From positions 62,001 to 126,000 of the forward strand of contig JAMPHY010000005.1 of assembly GCA_023663185.1 (NCBI GenBank): a stretch of DNA of 64,000 nucleotides, read 5' to 3'. A program made the translations under genes and the position numbers. This document shows positions 46,801-48,250 of the stretch, in pieces. The notes under the pieces are model-generated. The model saw only the letters and a list, made by a program, of their open reading frames with translations. It searched no databases and was not told where the DNA came from. Each line of letters opens with the position of its first letter. Position 1 is the first letter of the stretch. Source of the DNA: Clostridiales bacterium. GTDB lineage: Bacteria; Bacillota; Clostridia; Lachnospirales; Lachnospiraceae.

Positions 46801-46809
46801 TTCTTTTAT

Positions 46810-46882
46810 GGGGCATTAGCGCAGTTGGGAGCGCGCAACATTCGCATTGTTGAGGTCACGGGTTCGAATCCCGTATGCTCCA
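46810..46882 (+). tRNA. tRNA-Ala (CGC)
   Basis: Acceptor arms GGGGCAT and ATGCTCC, D-arm GCGC/GCGC, anticodon stem CAACA/TGTTG with loop TTCGCAT (anticodon CGC, reading GCG), T-arm ACGGG-TTCGAAT-CCCGT, discriminator A. No CCA encoded. The DUF3800-RNA locus follows directly. Confidence 0.93.
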
Positions 46883-47095
46883 TTAAATTAATTATGAGCT
46901 TTTCTGATATCTGCTTATCTAAGGAAATACTTGTATATGGTTTTATGATTTTTTATGGAAAATGTCTTGAATAGCTGCCATATCCCAAATATAATATAAT
47001 TTTCGGTTGAAATAAGGACATATGCTCTGAATAGTATTCTATCGGTTTATGGTATATAATAGAAATTAATTATATATGATTGTGGGGAAGTGATT

Positions 47096-47839
47096 ATGGA
47101 AGAAATAAAAACTTCAGTTTATGAAGATTTGTCCGTGTTTATAGACGAATCTGGCAGTATAACCAAGACTGATATATCATATAATAGATATTTTGTTGTT
47201 GCTATTTTGTTTACACGGAAGTATAGCAGACTGCAAAGGTATTTTCAGAAAGGAATTGCGTCTTTAATACAAAATCCAAAATATAAAACAATGTTGGAAC
47301 AAAATGGAGAAATAAAAGGAAGTAAACTGTCAGAAACAAAAAAAGAGCCTATTTATGAACGTATTATAAGGAATTGTTCGGATGATTTTGAATTAGGTAT
47401 TATTGTTTTGGATAATACTTATACCACTGATGAGTTTATAAAAAATCATGCCAGAACATTCAATTACATATTACAACTTTATTTAGACAATATGTTTAGA
47501 CATTGTAGTAAATACGCTAAAAATACGAGAGATATAAGGATATTGCTTGACGAACAAAACATTTCTACAGATGCGAAATATACACTGGCTGATTATCTGG
47601 AACAGCATTTTACTGTTATGAATCCTTTATGCCGTAATGTAGATGTTAAATATACAGATTCTAAAAATCATCCTATGATTCAATTAATTGATTTTATTTC
47701 TAATACATTTTATAGAAATCTTGAAAAACATGACAAAACAAGCATAAAAACAGTAAAAATGTTACTTCCATATGTTTGTGGAGGAAAAATTTTTGACTTT
47801 TCGACTAATCATAACACAAAATTATTATTGAATGAATAA
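47096..47839 (+). CDS. DUF3800 domain protein
   Basis: 247 residues from ATG 47096, after GGGGAAG (GTG 47090 is possible). DUF3800 marks: VFIDESGSI at the N-terminus (Asp-Glu), an E-I-K-G-S-K-L block, ILLDEQN in the middle, and the closing HPMIQLIDFISNTFYR with a late Asp. The acidic residues and alternating strands suit an RNase-H-like fold; nuclease activity is inferred. AT-rich, and inserted next to a tRNA. A strong promoter and a compact folded RNA follow the stop codon; published structured-RNA families are named for proximity to DUF3800 genes. Confidence 0.9.
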   Translation: MEEIKTSVYEDLSVFIDESGSITKTDISYNRYFVVAILFTRKYSRLQRYFQKGIASLIQNPKYKTMLEQNGEIKGSKLSETKKEPIYERIIRNCSDDFELGIIVLDNTYTTDEFIKNHARTFNYILQLYLDNMFRHCSKYAKNTRDIRILLDEQNISTDAKYTLADYLEQHFTVMNPLCRNVDVKYTDSKNHPMIQLIDFISNTFYRNLEKHDKTSIKTVKMLLPYVCGGKIFDFSTNHNTKLLLNE

Positions 47840-47851
47840 TATACAATATAC

Positions 47852-47881
47852 TTGACAACACTATTTATGGTATGTTATATT
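47852..47881 (+). promoter_or_regulatory. Sigma-A promoter of DUF3800-associated RNA
   Basis: Consensus TTGACA (47852-47857) and TATATT (47876-47881) with an 18-base spacer (17 if TTATAT is used). Starts 12 bp after the DUF3800 stop. Predicted transcription start is near 47888. Confidence 0.75.
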
Positions 47882-47884
47882 TAC

Positions 47885-47991
47885 TTTACCAAGTAATTTC
47901 CCTTATACGGTGCATGAGGATGTAAGGCGGCTGTAATGTCGTCCACCATAGGGTTTTGGTAGAAAGGCATTCCAGATATGGGATGTTTTTT
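47885..47991 (+). ncRNA. Candidate DUF3800-associated structured RNA
   Basis: About 105 bases, promoter and terminator of its own, no ORF. By hand: P1 TTTACCAA (47885-47892) with TTGGTAGA (47956-47963); P2 CCCT-x-AT-xx-GGTG (47900-47912) with CACC-AT-AGGG (47944-47953); P3 GGCGGC (47926-47931) with GTCGTC (47938-47943), hexaloop TGTAAT; a 13-base one-sided strand 47913-47925; then terminator stem GCATTCC/GGGATGT and six T. Several G-U pairs keep helices intact. Belonging to one of the described DUF3800 RNA families is likely from position but untested. Confidence 0.65.
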
Positions 47992-48022
47992 CGCTTTGTA
48001 GGTAAATATTTTCATAATATAT

Positions 48023-48056
48023 AAAGAGGCGGAACTGATCATCCCGTCTCTTTTAT
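48023..48056. terminator. Second hairpin terminator after the RNA
   Basis: AAAGAGGCGG and CCGTCTCTTT pair (one G-T) around a ~10-base loop, flanked by A and T runs. Acts as a backstop for the RNA. From here to 48324 there is no gene, only the two promoter-like sites and a hairpin listed below. Confidence 0.75.
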
Positions 48057-48165
48057 TGTATTACTTTTCTATTCACAACACAATCTTCAACGTAAATCAC
48101 CATCTTTCACTAAAATGGGGCAAAACGTCCATATTTCTTGCAGAAAGCCATAATGGTTTATGGAT

Positions 48166-48250
48166 TTGAAAAAGATATAGTAGAGTAGTATGATTTTATA
48201 GATAAATACTTAAAGAGATTCAACGAGATGGCGTATGGCTCTCTTTTTTT
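48166..48250 (+). promoter_or_regulatory. Promoter plus early hairpin upstream of ECF sigma gene
   Basis: TTGAAA (48166-48171), 17-base spacer, TATGAT (48189-48194). About 12 bases after the predicted start, AAAGAGA (48212-48218) pairs with TCTCTTT (48240-48246) and a T-run follows, so the transcript would end after ~50 bases unless anti-terminated. A second promoter-like pair, TTGACT (48275) and TTATAC (48299), lies nearer the gene. Confidence 0.5.

Follow-up and report, generated by a model that had tools for sequence, protein, structure and literature searches.

In classical type III toxin-antitoxin systems, a tandem-repeat RNA lies upstream of the toxin gene and both are transcribed from one shared promoter. 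Small RNAs associated with DUF3800 genes form a series, running to XI, that reportedly originates with Weinberg in 2017; they stand in Rfam without a known function. In C. difficile, the protein AbiF is neutralised in cis and in trans by a structured RNA that binds it directly (PMC12373285). Refinements of the Rfam families DUF3800-I and -IX have been published. The pairing of a DUF3800 gene with an RNA is already known as a kind (Rfam DUF3800-I, -VII, -IX and -XI). A sequence-only reading of the locus described here had put it forward as a candidate for an undescribed system, a label which fits the RNA family and its phage relatives but not the kind. We did not find these two, or the evidence for action in trans, in print in a literature search judged mostly from listings, which also returned nothing joining satellite phages with DUF3800.

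The window (the whole analysed stretch of DNA, 64,000 nucleotides) contains a DUF3800 gene followed by a small structured RNA with its own promoter (Table 1). With AbiF/Abi_2 and its ncRNA (RCd22; abiF motif RF03085), the locus shares the combination of a nuclease-fold protein with a structured RNA, the prophage setting and an RNA that would work in trans (PMC12373285). However, AbiF is a HEPN toxin whereas the window protein is RNase HII-like, and the AbiF RNA is upstream and co-transcribed whereas the window RNA lies behind the gene under its own promoter; no part of the window reaches the gathering score of RF03085. The type III systems ToxIN and AvcID likewise consist of a protein and an RNA partner, and the window's relatives share their phage setting. 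In contrast to them, the window RNA has no tandem repeats, is located downstream with a promoter of its own and accompanies a different protein family, and the classical type III anatomy is not found in the pair.

Table 1. Features of the DUF3800 gene and of the RNA gene behind it, in window coordinates.
Feature	Position	Strand	Details
DUF3800 gene, 247 aa	47096-47839	+	intact ORF; PF12686 match; predicted RNase HII-like fold
RNA promoter	47852-47881	+	-35 TTGACA 47852-47857; 18-bp spacer, TG before -10; -10 TATATT 47876-47881
Small structured RNA	about 47886-47995	+	5' end inferred from promoter; 3' end from U tract
Closing helix P1	47887-47892 with 47956-47961	+	covariation alignment
Helix P2	47900-47906 (47904 bulged) with 47948-47953	+	covariation
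Helix P3	47909-47912 with 47944-47947	+	covariation
Invariant 17-mer GCATGAGGATGTAAGGC	47912-47928	+	includes GAGG mini-hairpin and UGUAAG element
GAGG mini-hairpin (3 bp)	47913-47915 with 47920-47922	+	inside invariant 17-mer
Hairpin P4	47926-47931 with 47938-47943	+	covariation
3' hairpin and U tract, terminator-like	47963-47990	+	core stem and loop sequence conserved in the clade

The DUF3800 gene is real, as the sequence-only reading had claimed: its product scored 57.3 bits (E 3.7e-15) against the PF12686 profile, for a cut-off of 21. DUF3800 was the sole Pfam family in the protein, with no HEPN (Abi_2) domain; an NCBIfam search returned no match, and a defence-system search with PADLOC returned a weak CARF-HEPN match alone (E 0.0015). 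The tRNA that had been noted next to the gene is a tRNA-Ala at 46809-46883, 212 bp upstream. The claimed likeness to RNase H agrees with structure prediction, which gave an RNase H-type fold overall with RNase HII as the nearest. From RNase HII the protein differs in its sequence (about 13% identity), in its structure (Foldseek TM-scores of only 0.42-0.46) and in a conserved E72-x-K-G-S stretch of its own. Five residues, all acidic, are invariant across 18 sequences of the window clade (D17, E18, E72, D152 and D199). The protein is thus a predicted RNase HII-like fold with putative nuclease activity.

The RNA promoter starts 12 bp after the DUF3800 gene. Between 46885 and 48300 there are 15 promoter-like sites, of which it scores highest, matching the consensus in 11 of 12 bases; the count of 15 is not clearly higher than in shuffles (9.6, sd 3.4) and proves nothing alone. 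What supports this promoter, and with it the near-consensus promoter proposed earlier, is its recurrence at the same place in all 18 RNA loci scored, with 9 to 11 of 12 bases. The 3' hairpin at the other end of the RNA was not listed by a simple terminator scan and was read from sequence and fold. A second terminator-like stem lies behind the RNA at about 48025-48051 (AGAGGCGG..CCGTCTCT, then a T run), and similar stems also come after the RNA at L011 and L013. Because of this second stem, the conserved first hairpin, which had been taken for the terminator, may have a function of its own and not be the main terminator.

By itself, the fold of the window sequence is modest evidence for an RNA: for 47880-48005, the plus strand gives a more stable fold than its shuffles (z -2.1; equalled by 8 of 200), and the minus strand does not (z -0.5). 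It is covariation, not this single-sequence fold, that decides that the RNA structure is real. A search of 27 sources, including the window, with a model built from seven RNAs (R1) returned 16 full-length copies, seven of which are R1's own building set, all with at least 75 bits; the next match had 18.9 bits. These 16 RNAs (13 distinct; five rows nearly identical) served as the covariation set. A check for covariation had been proposed with the original reading, and the helices do covary: among the 13 distinct RNAs, both partners have changed in 13 of 36 base pairs, a number that 4 of 500 shuffles reach (mean 9.1). Paired cells make up 96.7% in an RNA alignment that had been fitted to the structure, a value reached by none of 500 shuffles, and the covariation score of 0.335 compares with 0.172 in shuffles (0 of 500 reach it) and at most 0.087 in slid structures. 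Further pair types are not in excess (25 versus 24.0 in shuffles; 186 of 500 reach this). In P1, alignment rows of three distinct RNAs (L020 with two copies, L025 and L027) are shifted by one, and part of the changes counted there may be alignment artefacts. The flips in P2 and P3, e.g. GGUG/CACC to ACCG/CGGU, are independent of this shift, and these two helices show the strongest covariation of the RNA, with 8 of 10 pairs changing on both sides. The three nested helices claimed at the outset covary, but the outer closing helix P1 had been missed, and part of what had been described as a 13-base one-sided strand is the 3-bp hairpin with its GAGG loop within the invariant 17-mer. A three-codon frame (AUG-AGG-AUG-UAA) is present at 47914-47925 inside the invariant core and absent from the sister and phage RNAs read.

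Across 14 RNAs, 55 of 119 columns are invariant. In the set of 13 distinct sequences, variation touches 37 of 72 paired columns but only 8 of 35 inner unpaired ones, and the longest variable unpaired run is 2 columns. Without a longer stretch of this type, a guide RNA was rejected, and with it the earlier suggestion that the protein is guided by the RNA. We also rejected pairing with rRNA: for the RNA's first 76 bases against E. coli K-12, the longest Watson-Crick runs were 7 (16S), 9 (23S) and 6 (5S), nothing above 20 shuffles, whose means were 8.15, 8.65 and 6.05, respectively.

A protein-alignment scan of 84,980 genomes found 19 DUF3800 loci. A homologous RNA follows the gene in 15 of them and is absent at L015, L017, L019 and the gene fragment L029. 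A second model, built from 16 RNAs (R2), found one strong copy (at least 94 bits) in 18 of 19 whole genomes, or 17 of 18 distinct ones, as G135 and G410 are the same assembly; the exception, G413, has gene fragments only. The proposed pairing of protein and RNA is a true coupling: wherever the clade gene is intact, in 18 distinct genomes or records (the window and L011-L027), the RNA is present too, beside the gene in 15 and at another site in 3. A gene was counted as intact if its open frame spans residues 14-243 or more, and L021 and L022 were read at the locus only. In 397 genomes of the family, R2 found the RNA in two, and these are the very two whose protein reaches 50% identity; five further genomes carry DUF3800 relatives of 27-36% identity and no RNA by R2. 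At L011-L014, the RNA shares 97-100% of its bases with the window RNA although protein identity is only 64-69%, a sign that more than a single protein partner may constrain it.

In 41 genomes of the genus, R2 found the RNA in four. Three have intact genes (G000, G809 and G846); in G842 the RNA is kept, with 109 of 110 bases identical to the window RNA, and the gene is reduced to about residues 186-247. The RNA is also kept at L028 in G412, where the gene retains about residues 14-35 and 200-245 in one frame; this locus is otherwise identical to L027, so the break is recent and says little. G413 and G830, the same assembly, have DUF3800 fragments and no RNA. In all, the RNA stands beside two broken genes of the clade (G842 and G412) and one of the wider family (G504), and was lost with one (G413). 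Relatives in which the RNA occurs without a DUF3800 gene would speak against the pairing. The RNA does lack an intact neighbour in three genomes, but these carry the gene elsewhere, and in G842, G412 and G504, but there a gene remnant adjoins it. A weak R2 match in G401 (33.1 bits, E 0.004) has no DUF3800 gene nearby.

The strongest evidence that the RNA works as a gene of its own comes from the loci where the two are apart. At L016 and L018, dnaK, dnaJ, DUF3800, RNA and prmA follow each other in one piece. Where L015, L017 and L019 come from, the genomes likewise have the DUF3800 gene after dnaJ, and the RNA with its promoter is found at another site, the split point lying between stop codon and promoter. 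The unlinked RNAs (L045, L044 and L047) are located between an STT3/PglB-type gene and prmA, with no DUF3800 gene within 1.5 kb. All three genomes are metagenome assemblies, and a chimera is unlikely because they share the same split. At the dnaJ-prmA loci, the gene has a dN/dS of 0.02-0.07 over six pairs, an approximate value as dS is high to near saturation, and the RNA is 93-100% identical versus 60-90% for the downstream flank. Both gene and RNA have stayed under strong selection. That the two are strongly conserved while apart argues that the RNA is a separate gene which acts in trans and is coupled to the protein; for a class of RNAs known from Rfam, this is genetic evidence for action in trans and for a tie to the protein's fate.

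The split loci also bear on whether the RNA is a cis element, be it part of the DUF3800 mRNA (its 3' UTR or terminator) or the leader of the next gene. Its usual place directly behind the gene and its end in a hairpin and U tract would fit such an element, which we nevertheless regard as scarcely credible given an own promoter in every locus scored and an RNA that is unlinked yet conserved in three genomes. Moreover, the next frames fall into 12 unrelated groups among 17 loci, a grouping for which we took, on either strand, the longest frame that begins no more than 1500 bases behind the RNA (L014, L021 and L022 left out), in which some frames may not be genes. A riboswitch or leader of a fixed downstream gene was rejected on this ground.

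Beyond the clade, a sister RNA (type B) lies beside five DUF3800 genes that are about 30% identical (L006-L009 and L074). Its plan is that of the window RNA, with a UACCAA/UUGGUA closing helix, AGUAA, a GAGG element, UAAG and a hairpin; L007 has UAGG for GAGG and L008 has AGUGA. Covariation in type B is supportive only: in 5 sequences, both partners differ in 3 of 23 pairs, which 12 of 500 shuffles equal. In viral contigs, a single-protein scan found no DUF3800 relatives and a 23-base RNA core pattern gave no matches. A protein-alignment scan of them found 16 relatives, and a type B or type C RNA was readable in all 15 that have sequence behind the gene; these RNAs were judged by eye and motif, not all were scored, and at least four are near-duplicates. 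DUF3800 relatives are also present in 6 of 72,556 plasmids and in 30 of 50,697 phage records, 20 from Streptococcus and 10 from Listeria; the 30 listed for the protein of Listeria phage PSA comprise 20 satellite phages of streptococci and 10 Listeria phages. In both phage groups, the relatives carry RNAs with the plan of the window RNA. In phage PSA, the gene lies behind the endolysin gene, three small genes ahead of the integrase gene; in satellites Javan304 and Javan555 it lies between regulator-side genes and the integrase gene, and in Javan731 it adjoins a CI-like repressor gene. Two of the five satellites read, Javan276 and Javan529, have no annotated repressor or integrase beside the DUF3800 gene. 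In Javan731, the DUF3800 gene is followed after about 0.8 kb by a gene annotated as a RelE/StbE toxin.

In six RNAs taken from phages or viral contigs, 25 of 36 pairs change on both sides (0 of 500 shuffles), and the UGUAAG element of the invariant 17-mer recurs in phage RNAs. A model built solely from these six, with no window-clade RNA (R3; its E-values are rough), gave a single match in the 64-kb window, the window RNA itself (47883-47964, 19.8 bits, E 0.031). By this match, the window RNA appears to belong to the phage-borne DUF3800 RNA superfamily described here. In 30 further loci R3 gave 12 matches, each an RNA beside a DUF3800 gene or, at L045, the unlinked RNA. On four other clade loci it matched L016 (E 0.002), L026 (0.0027) and L045 (0.38) and missed L018. 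It found none at nine type B loci (L006, L007, L008, L009, L074, L114, L116, L117 and L123) and none at the true DUF3800-I loci L053, L054 and L097, and it missed the plasmid locus L131. When 259 genomes of the phylum were searched for the RNA alone, with stricter filters under which the window RNA itself was missed, R3 gave one match, in G504, adjoining an N-terminal DUF3800 remnant.

These RNA-only searches count against an independent regulatory sRNA that the DUF3800 protein would process, protect or turn over. Its own promoter, its separate location in three genomes and its survival beyond the gene in some genomes would all suit such an RNA. It was found, however, just where the protein or a remnant of it is present (R2, 2 of 397 and 4 of 41; R3, 1 of 259), and the same plan recurs beside distant phage DUF3800 proteins; we consider an independent sRNA unlikely.

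Within the window, tRNAs alone reach an Rfam gathering score, and the window RNA reaches the cut-off of no family. The Rfam DUF3800 models, whose use on the RNA interval had been proposed, stayed below their cut-offs there, DUF3800-I (RF02969) giving a weak full-length match at the right place with 21.2 of the 44.2 bits needed. In the protein tree, to be read with caution for its long branches, the window clade, type B, phage type C, L102/L076 and the DUF3800-I proteins form one group (94/93, unstarred by the program). This grouping and the weak match are what a plain member of DUF3800-I would show; the two RNAs also share a core plan (P2/P3, small hairpin, UAAG and P4). Such membership is nonetheless very improbable. 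The model had no match at L018 and L026 at E up to 10, nor any in a whole-genome search at the same limit. Five of the eight pairs of the DUF3800-I 5' hairpin are non-standard in the window alignment, and the window bases aligned to it form P1 and the P1 inner loop instead, so that a closing helix replaces the hairpin. The RNA of L053 is in front of its gene whereas the window RNA is behind, and R3, as noted, misses the true DUF3800-I loci. DUF3800-VII (RF02967) and DUF3800-XI (RF02975) resemble the window RNA in being small RNAs that adjoin a DUF3800 gene in the same bacterial family; their proteins, however, lie outside the window's group in the tree, and R3 misses the loci given for them (L082 and L101). 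None of the Rfam DUF3800 families was found at cut-off in the 14 phage-side loci scanned.

The DUF3800 gene and its RNA probably form an RNA-controlled module of protection or self-maintenance. As the best reading, though one we hold tentatively and by analogy, the RNA restrains a nuclease in a manner resembling AbiF or type III pairs. The RNA would be made as its own transcript from the promoter just behind the DUF3800 gene, fold into a closed multi-helix structure and act in trans. It would most likely bind the DUF3800 protein and keep it harmless, like the RNA antitoxin in AbiF-type or type III-like pairs. Phage or other stress might then stop RNA synthesis or destroy the RNA, and the freed, presumably toxic nuclease would halt the cell or attack nucleic acid. 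Inhibition is favoured over activation: the RNA is never missing with an intact clade protein and outlives the broken protein, an asymmetry that is expected of an antidote, and its own promoter fits one as well. The phage and satellite relatives, several of them near regulator, lysis or integrase genes, count for such a module. Against it, the asymmetry concerns few cases (three broken genes with RNA, one without), the TM-scores are low and the type III anatomy is absent; a fast arms race would hardly leave the dnaJ-prmA site so strongly conserved, and the near-identity of the RNA beside diverged proteins at L011-L014 is a further point against it.

The main rival is a ribonucleoprotein effector. 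Here the RNase HII-like protein would be armed against some conserved target by the RNA, which would serve it as obligate cofactor, as scaffold or as a sensor of fixed specificity. It is possible, though less favoured and on the doubtful side. An intact clade protein never found without the RNA, the invariant unpaired elements and 3' hairpin, and an RNA more conserved than its protein would all be explained by it. In addition, DUF3800 is an RNase H-fold accessory of Cas12a2-type and some VI-F CRISPR systems (PMC10910872 and PMC12669027), and one of these papers remarks on its ncRNA association. The RNA, however, persists beside three broken genes, has no variable segment usable as a programmable guide and shows no long complementarity to E. 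coli K-12 rRNA in its first 76 bases. If the RNA is instead an antidote that restrains the protein, the RNase HII-like fold would join HEPN (AbiF) and ToxN under RNA control. A broader and somewhat more guarded proposal is that an RNase HII-like DUF3800 lineage of temperate phages, satellite phages and gut bacteria has as its obligate trans partner a single ancient RNA superfamily, most of which Rfam does not cover. The two might form a distinct class of RNA-controlled nuclease modules in phage conflict or element maintenance, the RNA serving as antidote and infection sensor. The phage relatives, including that of Listeria phage PSA, offer a common structure and small, testable units.

Several further observations concern the site and other DUF3800 loci. 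In the nearest congener (G813, L065), the block 46885-48200 is absent and the adjoining stretches are 92% and 96% alike; a simple empty site was rejected since the flanks are rearranged, and a clean insertion is not claimed. A different 337-residue gene without a Pfam match stands at the corresponding site. The window's own genome has two more DUF3800 genes. In front of one (L003) is a DUF3800-XI RNA at 1402-1449 (58.8 bits), so that two different DUF3800 RNA types occur in one genome. At L053, the true DUF3800-I RNA and its DUF3800 gene lie behind a phage terminase large-subunit gene (Pfam), and DUF3800-I therefore appears in prophage too. Two DUF3800 lineages outside the window's protein group (L079 and L104) have an apparent TTGACA-type promoter right after the stop codon; behind it come a stretch that can fold and a hairpin resembling a terminator, where no Rfam family reaches its cut-off. 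These stretches are possibly further RNA families. At nine loci (L077, L083, L085, L086, L088, L090, L094, L098 and L099), the DUF3800 protein starts with a CDES/CDET-CH motif and, judged by eye, another ORF seems to follow its gene directly in place of an RNA; these are perhaps a different, two-protein module.
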